The position numbers were made by a program, and so were the translations under genes. Positions 5,083 to 48,271 of a DNA stretch of 64,000 nt are shown in pieces (the stretch's first letter is position 1; each line of letters begins with the position of its first letter). The notes beneath the pieces were generated by a model, which had not been told where the DNA came from, made no database searches, and saw only the letters and a program-made list of their open reading frames with translations. The stretch is from Kineococcus rhizosphaerae. GTDB lineage: Bacteria; Actinomycetota; Actinomycetes; Actinomycetales; Kineococcaceae. The stretch covers positions 248,001-312,000 of the forward strand of contig NZ_PVZF01000004.1 of assembly GCF_003002055.1 (NCBI RefSeq), read 5' to 3'.

Positions 5083-5634
5083 TCAGCTGTAGACGTGCGG
5101 GGCCAGCGTCGCGACGCAGTCGAGGTTGCGGTACTTGTCCGCGAAGTCCAGCCCGTACCCGACGACGAACTCGTTGGGGATGTCGTGGCCGACGTACGCG
5201 ACGTCCACCTCGACCTTGGCGGCCTCGGGCTTGCGCAGCAGCGCGCACACCTTCACCGACGCCGGCCCGCGCGAGGACAGGTTCGCCAGCAGCCAGGACA
5301 GCGTCAGGCCGGAGTCGATGATGTCCTCCACGACCAGGACGTGGCGGCCGGAGATGTCGGTGTCGAGGTCCTTGAGGATCCGCACCACGCCGGAGCTCTT
5401 GGTGCCCGAGCCGTAGGAGCTGACAGCCATGAAGTCCATGGACAGCGGGATCTGCATGGCGCGGGACAGGTCGGCCATGACCATCGCCGCGCCCTTGAGG
5501 ACGCCGACGAGCAGGACGTCCTTGTCGGCGTAGTCGCGGTCGAGCTCGGCGGCCAGCTCGGCGACCCGGGTCGCCACCTGGTCCTTGGTCAGCAGCACGT
5601 GCTCGAGGTCGGTCCCGGCGGTCGCGGCGTCCAC
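5083..5634 (-). CDS. hpt: hypoxanthine phosphoribosyltransferase
   Basis: GTG 5634 ([15 protein letters not shown]) is preceded by GGGAG at good spacing and gives 183 residues, the family length; an upstream in-frame start at 5685 would overlap tilS. The PRPP loop reads [14 protein letters not shown], and the protein ends with the [15 protein letters not shown] block of HPRT. It salvages hypoxanthine and guanine to IMP and GMP. The 17-bp gap to tilS and conserved order tilS-hpt-ftsH suggest cotranscription with tilS. Confidence 0.95.
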
Positions 5635-5651
5635 GCAAGTTCTCCCGAGGT

Positions 5652-6671
5652 TCAGCGGTGGGGGGTGAGCACGAGCCTGCCACACGCGCGGGCGCCGCTT
5701 GCACCGCCCGGCAGGTGCACGGGCCCCTGCCCGCGCCAGCGCAGGACGAGCGCCTCGAGGGCGTCGACGTGCCCGGCGGTCAGCGCACCCGCCGGGCAGC
5801 CGGCGGCGAGCGCCGCGGAGCGCAGCCAGCGCCGGCGCAGGGCGGGCCGGGCGGCGCCGAGGTCGTCGACGGCCGCCGACCCGTCGCGGAAGGGGGTGCT
5901 CGCGGCGGCGAGCTCGTCGAGGGCGTCGGCGTCATCGCGGGCGGCGCGGGCCGTGCGGGCCAGCGCGGCGGCCACGCCCGGCCCGAGGCGGGACTCCAGG
6001 AACGGCAGCACGTCGTGCCGCACGCGGGTGCGCGTGAAGGCGGGGTCGGCGTTGGCGGGGTCCTCCCACGGCTCCAGCGCGCAGGCCGCGCGGACGACGT
6101 CGCGGGGCACCCCCAGCAGGGGGCGGTGGAAGACCCCGCGGACGGCGGGCATCCCGGCCAGCGACCGGGTGCCCGAGCCGCGGGCCAGGCCCAGCAGGAC
6201 CGTCTCGGCCTGGTCGTCCAGGGTGTGGGCCAGGAGCACGGCGACGGCGCCCTCCTGCTCGGCGACGCGTTCCAGGGCGGCGTAGCGGGCGGAGCGGGCG
6301 GCGCCCTCGGGTCCACCCGTTCGGCCCACCGCGGCCCGTTCGCAGCGGACGGGGTCCAGGCCCAGGGCGCGGCCCTGCGCGACGACGCGGGCGGCGACGG
6401 CGGCGGAGTCCGCGTGCAGGCCGTGATCGATCGTCACGAGGCCCGCGCGCTGCTCGGACCGCTGACGCATCGGTCCAGTCCTATCGTCCCGATGCGTCAA
6501 CGGTCCGGACCCGCGGGACGCCTCGGAGGCACGTTCGAAGGCGAGGGCCTCGGCGAGGGCCAGGGAGTCCGCTCCCCCGGAGCAGGCGACGAGGACGAGG
6601 CCGTCGACGTCGGCGAGCGCCCGCCGGAGCGCGACGCGGACGGCCGCGACCGCCAGGGACGGCCCCGTCAC
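5652..6671 (-). CDS. tilS: tRNA(Ile)-lysidine synthase with palindrome-encoded insert
   Basis: A 339-residue TilS. The PP-loop SGGADS is at residues 31-36, and [38 protein letters not shown] and [13 protein letters not shown] follow in normal order. TilS makes lysidine at position 34 of the CAU-anticodon tRNA-Ile using ATP and lysine. The oddity is residues about 47-74, which lengthen the segment between PP-loop helix and next strand by roughly 20 residues (including [17 protein letters not shown]). That segment is encoded by a 53-bp palindromic repeat (6455-6507). The reading frame stays open, and flanking motifs are intact, so the protein is probably functional, with an extra surface loop. 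Confidence 0.93.
6455..6507. repeat. 53-bp palindromic element, type B, inside tilS
   Basis: Arms of 19 bp (6455-6473 and 6489-6507), starting CGGACCGCTGACGCATCGG and ending with its near-complement (one G/A difference), flank a 15-nt centre. Total length is 53 bp, identical to the intergenic copies. The closest relative is the copy at 48219-48271. It encodes about residues 55-73 of TilS. Confidence 0.88.
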
Positions 6672-6675
6672 GCGC

Positions 6676-7881
6676 TCACCCGTGGACGCGCGCGACCCAG
6701 GCCGACGGGTCGGCGATCTCGGCGGGCAGCGGCAGGTGCTCGGGCGCGGTCCACACGACGTTGAGGCCGTCCCAGCCGACGGCCCCGACGACGCCGCGCA
6801 CGAAGCGTGCCCCGTCGGCGTACTGCCGGGTCTTGGCGTCGAGCCCGAGGAAGCGGCGCACGACCTGGTCGAGGGACCCGCGGCCCTTGCGGCGCTGGGT
6901 GAAGCGGGCCCGGATGGTCGCCACGGAGGGCACGACCCGGGGGCCGACGTCGTCCATCACGACGTCGGCGTGGCCTTCGAGCAGGCTCATGACGGCGACG
7001 AGCCGGCCGACGCGCTCGCGCTGGGCGGGGGTCTGCAGGAGGTCGGCGAGGCCCACGCCGGAACCGGTGGACGTGCCGCGCAGGACGTCGGGCAGCGACC
7101 GCGCGACCCCGGCGAGGCGCTCGCCGAGGTCGCGGGACTGGGACAGCAGCTCGGACGACAGGCCGCGGGCCTCGTCGGTGACCCAGCGGCGCAGCCAGGG
7201 GTGGGCGCCGAACTGCAGGCGGTGGGCCTCCTCGTGCAGGCAGACCCAGCGGCGGAAGTCGTGGGGGTCGACGTCGAGGTCGCGTTCGACCTGCACGACG
7301 TTCGGGGCCACGAGCAGCAGCCGCCCGGCGCTGCCGTCGTCGACGCCGGTGAAGGCGTCGAACTGGCCGAGGACGCGGCTGGACAGGAACGCGAGCAGGC
7401 TGCCGAGCTCGGCGCCGGTGGTGCGCCGGCCGACGGCGGTGCCCGCGCGGTCGAGCGCCCCGGGCGCGCCGGGGGTCGCCCCGGGGCGGGAGCCGACGAC
7501 GACGGGGCCCAACAGCGAGCGGAAGGCGTCGACGTTGGCGTGGGCCCAGGAGACGCGGTCGACGACGAGCGCGGGCGGCATCGGGACCGGGGAGGGCAGG
7601 TGCGCGGTCGCGGCCACCGGGCCGGCGGCCTCGGTGGCGGCCAGGCGCAGTTCGGCGACGACGTCGGTGATCTCGTCGCGGCCGAGCCTGGGGCCGGGGC
7701 GCACGAGGCGGGCGGCGACCTGGGCGGCGAGGTCGAAGTCGACGAGGTCGACGACGGGCCGCCCGTCCCGTTCCCCGCCCGGACCGTCCCCGGGGCCGTC
7801 TCCCGGGCCGTCTCCCGGGCCGTCCCCGACGCCCCGGTCCCCGCCCGGGACCTGCAGCCGTTCGTCCCCCCGTGCACGCAT
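6676..7881 (-). CDS. zinc-dependent metalloprotease / F420-associated hydrolase family (DUF2342)
   Basis: A 401-residue protein of the actinobacterial zinc-dependent metalloprotease family formerly called DUF2342. The metal site is HEEAHRLQF (an HExxH), and the second family motif SLLEGHADVVMDDVG follows about 90 residues later. The N-terminus carries a Gly-Asp-Gly-Pro repeat (about residues 19-35) encoded by 12-bp tandem copies at 7791-7825, absent from most relatives. No signal peptide is visible, so it probably acts in the cytoplasm; substrate is unknown. It is 4 bp from the tilS start and likely in the same transcript; this neighbour pair (dacB, metalloprotease, tilS, hpt, ftsH) is usual in actinobacteria. 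Confidence 0.85.
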   Translation of the reverse strand: MRARGDERLQVPGGDRGVGDGPGDGPGDGPGDGPGGERDGRPVVDLVDFDLAAQVAARLVRPGPRLGRDEITDVVAELRLAATEAAGPVAATAHLPSPVPMPPALVVDRVSWAHANVDAFRSLLGPVVVGSRPGATPGAPGALDRAGTAVGRRTTGAELGSLLAFLSSRVLGQFDAFTGVDDGSAGRLLLVAPNVVQVERDLDVDPHDFRRWVCLHEEAHRLQFGAHPWLRRWVTDEARGLSSELLSQSRDLGERLAGVARSLPDVLRGTSTGSGVGLADLLQTPAQRERVGRLVAVMSLLEGHADVVMDDVGPRVVPSVATIRARFTQRRKGRGSLDQVVRRFLGLDAKTRQYADGARFVRGVVGAVGWDGLNVVWTAPEHLPLPAEIADPSAWVARVHG

Positions 7882-7941
7882 GCCCGCACGGTACGCGGGC
7901 GGGCCGTGGGGCCGGCGGCGGGTGCAGCCGCGGGACCGGCG

Positions 7942-9453
7942 TCAGCGGCAGCCGCAGGCCGCGAGGGCGGTGGCGAAGCGGTCCTGCGCCCGGCGGGCCG
8001 TCACGGACCCGCCGGGGGTGACGCTGTCGGACATCACGGCGAAGGCCAGCAGCCGGCCGTCGGCGTCGCGCAGGAACCCGGCGAGGCTGCTGACGCCGGT
8101 GAGGGTCCCGGTCTTGGCGCGCACGACCCCGGCGGCGGCGGTGGAGTCGGGCTGGTCGTAGCGGTCGGCCAGGGTCCCGCTGACCGCCGCGACGGGCAGT
8201 CCCGCGGCGACGGCGCCGAGCTCGGGGTGCTTCCCGGCGGCGATCACGGACAGCAGCGAGGTGAGGGTGCGGGCCGGGATGCGCGCGTCGCGCCCGAGGC
8301 CGCTGGCGCCCTGGAGGTGGACGCCGGTCACGTCGACGCCGAGGGCGGCGACCTCGTCGACGACGGCGGCCGAGGCGTCGTCGAAGGTGCCCGTGCGGCC
8401 GGTGGCGAGGGCGACGCGGCGCGCGAGCACCTCCGCGAGGGTGTTGTCGCTGTCGGTGAGCATGAGCTCGACCTGCTCGGCGGTGGTGGCCGAGCTGACC
8501 GCCGCGAGCTGCTTGGCGCCCGGTTGCGCCGCGGCCCGCGCGACCGGCACCGACGAGGAACCGCTGCCCTGGTCCAGGACCGTGATGCCGTCGGCGGTGA
8601 GGGCCTGCACGAAGAGGAGGGCGGCGCCGAGGGCGGGGTCGGCGGCGCGCGGGGCGTTCTCCCCCGGCCCGAGCCTGGCCTCGTCGACGGCCAGCGGGGC
8701 GATGGGCATGACGAAGCCGGAGCCGACGTCGCCCGCGCCCCACCCCGGGGACGTGGCGGGGCCGGTGAACGAGCCGTCGTCGAGGCGGACGGCGACGCTG
8801 GTGCGGCCCGCGGCGCGCAGGGCGGCGGCGGTCTGCGCGGCGAGGTCGCCCAGCCCGGCGTGCCCGGCGACGGCCTCGGGGTCCCCGGCGCCCGCGGCGA
8901 GCAGCACGTCCCCGCCGGCGACGAGGACGACCTCGTCGGCGGTGGCCCCGGCCACGACCCGCGTGGTGGCGCGGGAGGTGTCGCCCAGGGCCCGCAGCGC
9001 GGCGACGGCGGTGAGGATCTTCGTGGTCGAGGCCGGGGTGCGGGCCACGTCGTCGGCCGAGGCCAGCAGGGTCCGGCCGGTGAGGGCGTCGACGACGCTG
9101 GCCGAGACGGACGCCCCGAGCGCCGGGTCGGTCAGCAGCGGCCCGACGGTGCCGCCGAGGACGGCGGGGTCGGGCACGGGCGCGGCCGCGTCCAGCGTCG
9201 GCAGCACGGGGACGGGGCTGGGGGCGGGCACGTTCGCGCCGGGTGCCGTCGGCAGGGGCGCGGCCGTCGGCGCCGGTGTCGTCGTCAGCGGCCCGGGGAC
9301 GGCTCCGGCGACGTCCAGCCCGGCGTACCCGCCGACCAGGACGAGCGCGGTGGCGGCGGTGACGACGGCGGCCGCGGCCTTGCGCACGCTGGTGTCTCCC
9401 CCGTCGTCCCGGTCACGCCCGGTCACGGGCGGCTGCGGCCCGGTTCGTTCCAC
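7942..9453 (-). CDS. dacB: D-alanyl-D-alanine carboxypeptidase/endopeptidase, PBP4 type
   Basis: A 503-residue peptidase S13 protein. GTG 9453 follows GGAGGGG at short spacing. A single membrane anchor (about 24-46) is followed by a Pro/Ala/Thr linker (about 53-95). The three active-site motifs are present: STTK at 142-145, SDNTLAE, and KTGT. It trims D-Ala from muropeptides outside the membrane. The ORF ends with ALAACGCR. It is divergent from ppa across 95 bp, in which TAGTGT on the minus strand is a possible -10. Known actinobacterial gene order supports the call. Confidence 0.93.
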   Translation of the reverse strand: MERTGPQPPVTGRDRDDGGDTSVRKAAAAVVTAATALVLVGGYAGLDVAGAVPGPLTTTPAPTAAPLPTAPGANVPAPSPVPVLPTLDAAAPVPDPAVLGGTVGPLLTDPALGASVSASVVDALTGRTLLASADDVARTPASTTKILTAVAALRALGDTSRATTRVVAGATADEVVLVAGGDVLLAAGAGDPEAVAGHAGLGDLAAQTAAALRAAGRTSVAVRLDDGSFTGPATSPGWGAGDVGSGFVMPIAPLAVDEARLGPGENAPRAADPALGAALLFVQALTADGITVLDQGSGSSSVPVARAAAQPGAKQLAAVSSATTAEQVELMLTDSDNTLAEVLARRVALATGRTGTFDDASAAVVDEVAALGVDVTGVHLQGASGLGRDARIPARTLTSLLSVIAAGKHPELGAVAAGLPVAAVSGTLADRYDQPDSTAAAGVVRAKTGTLTGVSSLAGFLRDADGRLLAFAVMSDSVTPGGSVTARRAQDRFATALAACGCR

Positions 9454-9548
9454 GGGCCCCTCCTGCGCGACACTAGCGCGGTCCGTCGGCCGGGAGTCCT
9501 CCGGTCGGCCGTCCCGAAGCGCAGAGCAGTGCCGAGATGAGGAGCCAC

Positions 9549-10070
9549 GTGAGCACCCCAGCCGAGTTCGACGCGACCATCGAGATCCCCAAGGGTCAGC
9601 GCAACAAGTACGAGGTCGACCACGAGTCCGGGCGCATCCGCCTGGACCGGATGCTGTTCACCTCGACCCGCTACCCGCACGACTACGGGTTCATCGAGGG
9701 CACGCTGGGTGAGGACGGGGACCCGCTGGACGTCCTCGTCATCCTCGAGGAGCCGACGTTCCCGGGCTGCCTCATCACGTGCCGCGCGATCGGCCTGTTC
9801 CACATGCGCGACGAGGCCGGCGGCGACGACAAGATCCTCGCCGTCCCCGCGGGCGACCCGCGCTGGGCGAACATCCAGGACCTGTCGGACGTGTCGGACT
9901 TCGACCGCCTGGAGATCCAGCACTTCTTCGAGACCTACAAGGACCTCGAGCCCGGCAAGAGCGTCGAGGGCGCCAACTGGGCCGGTCGTGCGGAGGCCGA
10001 GGCGGAGATCGCCGCGAGCTTCGAGCGCGCCAAGGGGACCTCGTACGAGCTGGGCGCCTCCAAGCACTGA
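9549..10070 (+). CDS. ppa: inorganic pyrophosphatase
   Basis: GTG 9549 ([16 protein letters not shown]) has GGAG just upstream and gives 173 residues; an ATG at 9537 lacks a ribosome site. The family I signature [10 protein letters not shown] is present, with [31 protein letters not shown] and [12 protein letters not shown]. It hydrolyses cytosolic PPi with Mg2+. The genome also encodes a membrane pyrophosphatase in this window (49823-52174), so PPi can be used either way. It ends 12 bp before a pair of palindromic elements. Confidence 0.97.
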
Positions 10071-10082
10071 GGCCGCGCGTTC

Positions 10083-10135
10083 CGGCACGTTGACTCCCCG
10101 GTCGCTTTGACCGGGACCGTTGAGTCAACGTGCCG
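10083..10135. repeat. 53-bp palindromic element, type A, copy 1 (hybrid arms)
   Basis: Outer arms CGGCACGTTGACTC and GAGTCAACGTGCCG are perfect, but two inner bases differ (CC on the left, TT on the right where GG would pair). The left arm looks like copies 3-5 and the right arm like copy 2. It lies between the convergent ends of ppa and the NlpC gene, where a stem could terminate both transcripts. Confidence 0.88.
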
Positions 10136-10147
10136 TTCCGCGTCTCC

Positions 10148-10200
10148 CGGCACGTTGACTCAACGGTCGCTTTGACCGGGACCGTTGAGTCAACGTGCCG
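10148..10200. repeat. 53-bp palindromic element, type A, copy 2 (perfect)
   Basis: Two 21-bp arms are perfectly complementary around an 11-nt loop (GCTTTGACCGG). It is 12 bp from copy 1 and 13 bp from the NlpC stop. Position between convergent genes suits a bidirectional terminator. Confidence 0.9.
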
Positions 10201-10213
10201 TTCGGCGTTCGGG

Positions 10214-11452
10214 TCAGCTGGGCCGGGTGCCGAACGCCATGAGGCCGGAGCGGTAGATCGACGCCGTCCGCACGTTCGCGCCGGTGTGCGGGGCCTCCAC
10301 CATCGTGCCGGGGGCGATGACCATCCCGACGTGGTGGATGGTCGAGGCGTCGGACGTGTTCGTCGCGTAGAAGACGAGGTCGCCGGGTTCGAGGTCGGCG
10401 AGGTCGACCTTGGCCTGGCCGGAGTACTGCAGCCGCGAGGAGTGCGGCAGGGCGACGCCGGCCGCGCCCCAGGCCCGCAGGGTCAGGCCGGAGCAGTCGA
10501 AGGAGTCGGGCCCGTCCGCGGCCCACAGGTAGGGCTTGCCGAGCTGGGCCAGGGCCCAGTCGACCGCGGTGTCTGCTCCCGCGGTGGGGCCCGCGGCGCG
10601 GCGCACCGACGCCGAGCCGGACGAGGGACCCGACCCCGCGCGTGACGCCGAGGCCCGGGCGGCGGCTTCGGCGGCGGCCTTGGCGGCGGCGGCCGCGGCG
10701 GCCTGCCGTTCGGCTTCGAGACCGGCCTGCCGCTGCTGCTCGAGGGCCACCGACGTCTGCTGCAGCTGCGCGAGCTGGGCGACGAGGGCGTCGTTCTCCT
10801 GCTGGGTGCTCGCGACGAGGGCGTCGGCGGTGTCGGCCGCGCGCTGCGCGGCGGTGCGGGCGGCGGCGGCCTTCGCGGTGGCGTCCTGCTGGGCCTGCCG
10901 GGCGGTGGCGGCCGCGGCGGAGGTGGAGTCGGCGAGCGCCTGGGCGTCGGCGGCGCGCTGCTGGACGTCGGCGCGGTTGCCGGTGAGGTGCTCGAGGGTG
11001 GCGCGGTTGGTGACGTAGTCGTCGACCGAGCCGGACGTGAGGGCGCTGGTCAGCGGGGAGTAGTCGTCGGAGGTGCCGCGGTAGGTCGCCGAGGCCATCC
11101 GGCCCAGGTCGACGCGGGCGACGGCGTAGGCGGCGGCGGCGCGGTCGGCGGCGGCCCGGGCGGCGTCGGCCTCGGCGGTGCGCTGCCCGAGCAGGGCGTC
11201 GGCCTCGTCGTAGTCCTCGGCGGCGACGGACAGCGCCGTCTGCGCGGCGTCGAGCTGGTCCTGCTGGGCGGTGAGCCGGGCCTGCAGCGCGTCGACCTGC
11301 GCGGCCTTGGCGGCGGCGGCGGCGTTGGCCTGGTCGACCTGGTCCTGCGAGGGGTAGACGGGGTCGGCGACCGCCGTCCCGCCGAGGGCGAGGAGCGGGA
11401 CCGAGGTGGCCATCGCCAGCAGCAGGGTGCGGCGGGTGGCACGCTCAGTCAC
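10214..11452 (-). CDS. secreted NlpC/P60 peptidoglycan hydrolase (RipA-like)
   Basis: I prefer GTG 11452 (VTERATRRTLLLAM), 8 nt after GAGGG; starts at 11458 and 11461 are too close to that site. The 412-residue product has a signal peptide (cleavage likely after ALGGTAVA), a long Ala/Gln-rich coiled coil (about 30-265), a short Ser/Gly linker and a C-terminal NlpC/P60 domain with the catalytic FDCSGL cysteine, the HHVGM histidine and a following acidic/asparagine position. Such proteins cleave D-Glu-meso-DAP bonds during division. It is divergent from the MerR gene. Confidence 0.92.
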   Translation of the reverse strand: MTERATRRTLLLAMATSVPLLALGGTAVADPVYPSQDQVDQANAAAAAKAAQVDALQARLTAQQDQLDAAQTALSVAAEDYDEADALLGQRTAEADAARAAADRAAAAYAVARVDLGRMASATYRGTSDDYSPLTSALTSGSVDDYVTNRATLEHLTGNRADVQQRAADAQALADSTSAAAATARQAQQDATAKAAAARTAAQRAADTADALVASTQQENDALVAQLAQLQQTSVALEQQRQAGLEAERQAAAAAAAKAAAEAAARASASRAGSGPSSGSASVRRAAGPTAGADTAVDWALAQLGKPYLWAADGPDSFDCSGLTLRAWGAAGVALPHSSRLQYSGQAKVDLADLEPGDLVFYATNTSDASTIHHVGMVIAPGTMVEAPHTGANVRTASIYRSGLMAFGTRPS

Positions 11453-25555: not shown

Positions 25556-25608
25556 CGGCACGTTGACTCCCCGGTCCCGGTGAAAGAGACCGGGGAGTCA
25601 GCGTGCCG
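25556..25608. repeat. 53-bp palindromic element, type A, copy 3
   Basis: 21-bp arms with one mismatch around the 11-nt loop CCGGTGAAAGA. Starts CGGCACGTTGACTC and ends with TGCCG. It begins 22 bp after the stop of the hypothetical gene, so it may terminate it. Confidence 0.9.
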
Positions 25609-25630
25609 CAACAGGTGTGGGCACCGGCGG

Positions 25631-25683
25631 GGGCACGTTGACTCCCCGGTCCCGGTGAAAGAGCCCCGGGAGGCAACGTGCCG
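25631..25683. repeat. 53-bp palindromic element, type A, copy 4 (degenerate right arm)
   Basis: Same 11-nt loop as copy 3, but the right arm has at least three changes and the first base is G. Directly oriented 22 bp after copy 3, suggesting tandem duplication followed by decay. Confidence 0.82.
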
Positions 25684-32593: not shown

Positions 32594-32646
32594 CGGCACG
32601 TTGACTCCTCGGTCCCGTTCAACGGGACCGGGGAGTCAACGTGCCG
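32594..32646. repeat. 53-bp palindromic element, type A, copy 5, overlapping a gene end
   Basis: 21-bp arms with one wobble-type mismatch and the loop CCGTTCAACGG, which is itself self-complementary, so the stem can extend. The TGA stop of the flavoprotein gene (32636-32638) lies in the right arm. Confidence 0.9.
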
Positions 32647-48218: not shown

Positions 48219-48271
48219 CGGACCGTTGACGCATCGGTACGAACCTTTCGCACCGATGCGTCAACGGTCCG
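48219..48271. repeat. 53-bp palindromic element, type B, intergenic
   Basis: Two perfect 20-bp arms (starting CGGACCGTTGACGCATCGG) around a 13-nt centre. It lies 11 bp beyond the stop of the methyltransferase gene (minus strand) and may terminate it. The rest of 48028-48282 shows no clear gene. Confidence 0.92.

Follow-up and report, generated by a model that had tools for sequence, protein, structure and literature searches.

A palindrome of a REP-like family lies in frame inside tilS of Kineococcus rhizosphaerae, and the family is associated with a predicted AbiEi-nuclease gene

The tilS gene of Kineococcus rhizosphaerae, encoding tRNA(Ile)-lysidine synthetase, contains in its reading frame a 53-bp palindrome belonging to a dispersed family, and this family is associated with a partner gene whose product is predicted to combine an AbiEi-like part with a nuclease-like domain of the Vsr/EDxHD type. 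Palindromes and partner probably constitute a two-part REP-like system, in which the insert in tilS is one copy of the type B palindrome, presumably mobilised like the rest of the family. The features of the 64,000-nucleotide stretch analysed (the window) and the two partner genes of this genome, q1 and q2, are listed in Table 1.

Table 1. tilS, the palindromes of the window and the two partner genes
Feature	Position	Strand	Basis
tilS, tRNA(Ile)-lysidine synthetase, 339 aa	5652..6671	-	PF01171 and PF09179 matches; single match in genome
Type B 53-bp palindrome, in frame inside tilS, residues 56-72	6455..6507	-	repeat-family match; absent from tilS of relatives examined
Type A palindrome between convergent genes	10083..10135	.	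pattern match
Type A palindrome, 12 bp from the 10083..10135 element	10148..10200	.	pattern match
Type A palindrome between tandem genes	25556..25608	.	pattern match and alignment to congeners
Type A palindrome, 22 bp from the 25556..25608 element	25631..25683	.	pattern match and alignment
Type A palindrome; neighbouring ORF ends at TGA within the element	32594..32646	.	pattern match
Second type B palindrome of the window, 85% identical, intergenic	48219..48271	.	pattern match and alignment to congeners
q1, 315 aa	L091:2464-3411		two type B copies either side
q2, 310 aa	L092:2715-3647		two type A copies either side

The 339 codons of tilS are uninterrupted in the ORF list of the window. A first-pass annotation of this DNA had placed a palindrome within the coding sequence, between the PP-loop helix and the DHGL strand, and on both points it was right. 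The imperfect type B palindrome starts at nucleotide 165 of the coding sequence and is read in frame; three of its six reading frames are free of stop codons, that of tilS being one of them. In the AF2 model of TilS (mean pLDDT 93.4), residues ~54-74 form a lower-confidence coil (block means 73 and 66 over residues 51-70) located between helix 34-53 and strand 75-82. The modelled region is compatible with a tolerated surface loop, and TilS may have kept its activity. The annotation also held that about 20 residues had been added with the frame kept; the frame is indeed kept, while the element itself encodes 17 whole residues.

The arm of this palindrome, CGGACCGTTGACGCATCGG, has four matches in the window with up to three mismatches, as compared to a mean of 0.11 and a maximum of 2 in 100 shuffles. 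In the whole 5.61-Mb genome it has 17 forward and 18 reverse matches at the same tolerance, and the reversed control pattern has 0 and 0. The tilS copy agrees with another type B copy at up to 45 of 53 bases; other copies, whose presence elsewhere in the genome the first-pass annotation had treated as decisive, thus form a dispersed family.

None of the 29 relatives inspected, the best-scoring among 55 other genomes with a tilS match, has the insert in tilS, a comparison that the same annotation had proposed for close relatives; at the 80 further tilS loci the palindrome arm, with up to three mismatches, is likewise absent. Counted from SGGxDS to DH, the protein has 53 residues here, 27-40 in the 28 relatives measured (31 in 21 of the 28) and 27-42 at the 80 further loci, all of which are shorter than here. 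The TilS loop is therefore 13-26 residues shorter in the 28 relatives, and it exceeds the mode by 22 residues and that of the relative with the best tilS match (G008) by 26. Since the element encodes 17 residues and the loop is 22-26 residues longer, part of the extra length represents loop variation or a flanking change. In the alignment of tilS with five congeners, the palindrome falls in a gap. Ordinary divergence of the loop, with a likeness to the repeat that arose by chance, could appeal to this variation in length between the two motifs (27-42 residues among relatives), but it is already contradicted by the agreement of up to 45 of the 53 bases with a further type B copy and by the four arm matches in the window where shuffling gives 0.11; its probability is negligible.

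The coding-strand junctions read CGCGGGTC-(53 bp)-AGCAGC, and GGTCCG is present at both ends of the insert, so that the frame would be kept without further change if ...GGGTCCGAGCAG... had gained a net 51 nt. The first-pass annotation argued that, 53 not being a multiple of three, the event must have included extra bases; its requirement for a net insert divisible by three stands, and that for extra bases does not, because the shared GGTCCG permits 51 nt. The 51-nt solution is one candidate among several, 54 or 66 nt being likewise possible, given that loop length varies among relatives.

The dispersed family numbers at least 63 copies in this genome, a lower bound, as the copies were taken from regions picked by pattern matches and those elsewhere were missed; seven low-scoring rows of 70 candidates had been removed before this count. 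It comprises 38 copies of type A (CGGCACGTTGACTC...), 16 of type B and nine hybrids. Stem changes in type A are often compensated, A-T being replaced by C-G at the 11th base of the arm in 9 of the 38 copies. In the hybrids, half of a type A element is joined to a second module, TTGTCCGGCGCTG[C/G]GCGC[C/T]GGCTCCATCC, which is itself a small hairpin; all nine matches of this module (up to three mismatches) fall within hybrids, for example at G000:C9:96310-96376 and G000:C14:131797-131863 (G000 being this genome). The close type A pairs at 10083-10200 and 25556-25683 are spaced 65 and 75 bp from start to start, respectively. A TGA inside the arm ends the neighbouring ORF at 32594-32646 and at eight other type A or hybrid copies. 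A different long palindrome, GAGACCGGTCTC...GAGACCGGTCTC, was found among the pattern matches at G000:C2:106288-106333. No GTAG or CGTC tag at the hairpin foot stands out by eye in the listed flanks, and an Rfam search of window positions 5600-11000 yielded no family, only a sub-threshold guanidine-II match at 8919-8961.

According to a simple codon-usage gene caller, 34 of the 63 copies lie between tandem and 27 between convergent genes, one between divergent genes and one, that of tilS, inside a gene; the intergenic gaps of at least 53 bp in the window comprise 13 tandem, 3 convergent and 8 divergent ones. Most intergenic copies (49/62) overlap a stop codon or lie within 30 bp of one. In the congeners G008, G005 and G006, none of 55 copies is located in a gene (29 convergent, 23 tandem, 2 divergent and 1 at a locus edge); the loci scanned for in-gene copies (23 in G008, 14 in G005 and 17 in G006) are a subset of the pattern matches, and the copies of G001 were left unclassified. 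The family thus consists of extragenic palindromes and behaves like REPs, the tilS insertion being a rare exception. A habit of in-gene insertion like that of the Rickettsia elements, put forward in the first-pass annotation, is not borne out: with one in-gene copy in 63 here and none in 55 in the three relatives, the rest lie behind genes, and the further in-gene copies sought in this genome amount to none besides tilS.

The location of nearly all copies behind genes, between tandem or convergent ORFs, together with the compensated stem changes (A-T to C-G in 9 of 38 type A copies), would also suit lineage-specific intrinsic terminators. The AbiEi-like gene would then merely be situated near a hairpin, and the tilS copy would be a terminator-like sequence carried in by chance. 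Such an explanation is unlikely, as near-identical 53-bp copies that differ by species are unexpected of terminators, as are the palindromes on both sides of the partner gene, upstream of its start included, and the rarity of the palindromes in congeners lacking this gene; moreover, strong termination midway through tilS should be harmful.

The REP-like reading is consistent with differences among congeners at orthologous intergenic places. At the place aligned with the region next to 10083, G008, G001 and G006 each carry their own palindrome and G005 a more degenerate inverted repeat. The place at 25556 is occupied by a palindrome in G001 and G006, none being seen in G008, G005 and G007, and that at 48219 by other palindromes in G001, G005 and G006 and by none in G008. 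No target site duplication was found at the aligned places, where no junction was resolved to the base. Most elements of G008 (L306-L325, L353, L354) have on their left a run of G and two further bases, and on their right two bases and then a run of C, frequently GGGGTT and AACCCC; these borders may belong to the element itself or represent a target rule. Insertion into pre-existing hairpins was considered and is not claimed: pairing between flanks exceeds that of shuffled ones mainly at -1 to -3 (type A, G008), with no clear excess farther out.

Two pairs of palindromes about 1.1 kb apart each enclose one gene, and these genes, q1 and q2, are homologous. They are the only close members in this genome; a third match (G000_C7) is 28% identical and has no palindrome pair in its flanks. 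The flanks of 22 homologues were examined (20 regions and the two own ones), of which 21 entered the flank tests, G000_C7 being dropped. Palindromes were called on both sides of 13 homologues, on one side of six and on neither side of two (G015 and G033); those on the two sides of the G009 homologue are mutually unlike. In most cases the upstream palindrome lies roughly 100-240 bp before the start of the partner gene. The match between the upstream and downstream flanks of the same gene exceeds all 20 mismatched pairings in 19 of 21 homologues, including G015 and G033; flanks are compared directly in this test, and their palindromic nature is no part of the score. The exceptions are G005_C5, which ties with the null (36 = 36), and G009, with 13 against a null maximum of 15. 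Scores of 17 or more were obtained for 20/21 homologues and 3/166 control genes, and scores of 22 or more for 18/21 and 0/166, the controls being ordinary genes of this genus only, taken from congener tracts that had been selected as syntenic to the window.

Partner proteins with type-A-like neighbours (G000_C2, G006_C13, G008, G001_51 and G005_C5) are 61-80% identical to each other and those with type-B-like neighbours (G000_C15, G006_C5 and G001_46) 61-67%, while identity across the two groups is 47-53%. By eye, palindrome type follows the clade of the partner gene across species.

Within the genus, the palindrome pattern occurs 49 times in this genome, 26 times in G008, 22 in G006, 18 in G005 and 29 in G001, all of which have a close partner gene (controls 4, 2, 0, 0 and 1), as opposed to 2, 0, 1, 1, 1 and 0 times in G002, G003, G004, G007, G009 and G010, which have none (controls 0-2). 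Were the genomes independent, this split of five against six congeners would be expected by chance once in 462 cases; being related, they are not independent. Three of the six genomes without a close gene are fragmented drafts (500-1060 contigs), and the search patterns were written from palindromes beside the gene in gene-bearing genomes, so that gene-free genomes may hold other palindromes. The tie between gene and palindrome is accordingly to be taken as an association, in which related genomes do not count as independent points. The second arm type, found beside the second gene clade, has forward/reverse counts of 7/8 in G006, 3/6 in G005 and 7/11 in G001, and 0-1 per strand in the other eight congeners. 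The remote homologue of G009 is 26% identical to q2 and 54-58% identical to the second clade; this genome has no clear palindrome excess (1 versus control 0) and no match of the second arm type.

Outside the genus, flank palindromes are in excess in G080 (37/34, control 5/2) and G093 (32/38, control 6/7), and are near control levels in G018 (15/11 versus 7/13), G036 (7/8 versus 11/11) and G052 (5/7 versus 12/7), as well as in G007 and G001. In G067, which has remote homologues only, the counts are 18/13 against a control of 4/8, the listed rows all having two mismatches. The arm of G042 has counts of 11/18 versus 0/0 for its control, and of 0-1 per strand in G025, G057, G098, G001 and G007. 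Counted from the gene alone, at E <= 1e-20, the partner profile has matches in 177 of the 296 class genomes; up to 12 matches of this AbiEi-nuclease profile occur in some of them (G224, G154, G170 and others). A single plasmid record, from Rhodococcus ruber, carries a partner homologue (31.9%).

The q1 and q2 genes have no Pfam match at 0.01 and no NCBIfam match at 1, and a search of one of the two proteins against PDB sequences gave no match at 1. Among 21 partner homologues, weak Pfam matches were obtained to AbiEi_4 (11/21) and to the MTES_1575 REase (2/21), and the PADLOC AbiEi model PDLC02249 matches all 21. In the AF2 model of q2 (pLDDT 90.4), residues 7-199 resemble the AbiEi antitoxin 6y8q_A (Z 12.2, rmsd 5.8 over 184 residues), and residues 204-308 resemble the catalytic domain of the homing endonuclease I-Bth0305I, 3r3p_A (Z 13.3, rmsd 2.0 over 96); the C-terminal domain is also similar to 3hrl (Z 12.9) and Vsr, 1cw0_A (Z 11.7). 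The partner is thus predicted from its model to comprise an AbiEi-like part and a Vsr/EDxHD-type nuclease-like domain. Residues E207, D239 and H257 are invariant across the 21 sequences, as we assume an EDxHD active site would require. By inspection, no AbiEii toxin gene was noticed among the ORFs flanking the two own copies. The 1.1-kb palindrome pairs had also been considered as composite transposons with a known transposase, a possibility rejected because the genes enclosed are those of the AbiEi-nuclease partner.

Both predicted halves suit a 53-bp palindrome, since the target on which EDxHD enzymes form dimers measures nearly 60 bp (PMC3943268) and AbiEi antitoxins are described as binding inverted repeats and autoregulating their expression (PMC7319586). 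By analogy, autoregulatory binding of inverted repeats could account for part of the arrangement. Taken further, the partner would be an AbiEi-type autoregulator or a defence nuclease, the flanking palindromes its operators and the dispersed copies selected decoy or self-marking sites. This proposal, which shares with ours the AbiEi literature and the PADLOC matches in 21/21 homologues, appears improbable: an operator has no need of a further copy after the stop codon of the gene that it controls, promoters are avoided by the family (one divergent location in 63), and the presence of different palindromes or none at orthologous intergenic places is better explained by the turnover of mobile DNA.

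As an enzyme for mobile REP-like palindromes, a RAYT was also considered. The Y1 (RAYT) transposase family PF01797, the sole transposase family covered, has no match in this 99.99% complete genome, and the same search was positive in 5 of 14 control genomes; mobilisation by a RAYT was rejected on this ground. The palindromes might instead be MITEs of an ordinary insertion sequence, or RAYT REPs whose enzyme was missed or lost, with the AbiEi-nuclease gene as a passenger. Their placement and copy number do resemble those of GTAG/CGTC REPs (PMC3733652); the confinement of the search to PF01797 also leaves room for other transposases. Nevertheless, we hold this to be quite improbable in view of the negative PF01797 result with its positive controls, and because the pairing of palindrome type with gene in several genera would have no cause if the gene were a passenger.

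In the two-part system that we favour, type B would be a lineage-specific REP-like family that normally settles just behind stop codons. Each palindrome type would have one copy of the partner gene, bounded by two palindromes of that type. The AbiEi-like part should bind the palindrome and the Vsr/EDxHD-type domain should cut DNA, and the partner, probably dimerised on the palindrome, would cut at palindromes or target sites, after which repair or replication could copy the palindrome to new places, with a preference for the 3' ends of genes. A type B copy may have entered tilS by a frame-preserving event, in a loop tolerant of length change. We lean slightly towards a broader view, namely that Actinobacteria possess an undescribed class of REP-like systems in which an AbiEi-like reader fused to an EDxHD cutter replaces the RAYT. 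Every copy of the gene would drive a palindrome type of its own, turnover at shared 3' intergenic places would be fast from one species to the next, and some palindromes would be written in frame into proteins such as TilS. REP palindromes are known to occur with RAYT transposases, and CGTC REPs appear in a 2013 survey without a dedicated transposase (PMC3733652). If our view is true, the presence of an unrelated partner of homing-endonuclease-like type in a REP-like system would point to more than one origin of this lifestyle, and the partner would provide an enzyme to test; with profile matches in 177/296 genomes of the class, the system could be widespread. The tilS copy would be a natural experiment on whether an important protein can survive the entry of such DNA.

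Among known systems, REP/REPIN sequences with their RAYT (TnpA-REP) are alike in being short palindromes present in tens of copies, mostly behind tandem or convergent genes, with a partner gene flanked by palindromes and with occasional in-gene copies (PMC3733652). They differ in size, REPs being 20-40 bp and the palindrome described here ~53 bp (PMC3733652). They differ also in the partner, which here has an AbiEi-like part and an EDxHD/Vsr-type fold in place of a Y1 protein; with PF01797 absent from the genome, the arrangement is not filed as RAYT-REP. In-gene REPs are known in several species, with inserts of 20-30 aa (PMC3733652), so that the tilS insertion alone is a further case of a known kind. 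The analogy with Rickettsia palindromic elements, drawn in the first-pass annotation, is partly apt: these elements also place palindromic DNA in frame in a conserved protein gene, but they are ~150 bp long and enter genes repeatedly, with 44 gene insertions in R. conorii, compared with one of 63 copies here (PMC10969869).

On the side of the partner, the EDxHD homing endonuclease I-Bth0305I and Vsr share the predicted fold of its C-terminal domain, and the dimer target of EDxHD enzymes, nearly 60 bp, is close to the length of the palindrome (PMC3943268). Unlike I-Bth0305I, the partner has an AbiEi-like N terminus and is encoded by a free-standing ORF between palindromes, and what it would spread is a small palindrome and not a group I intron. 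The AbiEi antitoxins of type IV systems share the N-terminal fold and the PADLOC AbiEi models, and, in their setting, the binding of inverted repeats (PMC7319586), while the partner differs from them by its fusion to a nuclease-like domain. Searches of listings of the open-licence literature returned no paper in which AbiEi or homing-endonuclease genes are described as partners of REP-like palindromes, and it is the partner that appears to be new in this REP-like system.
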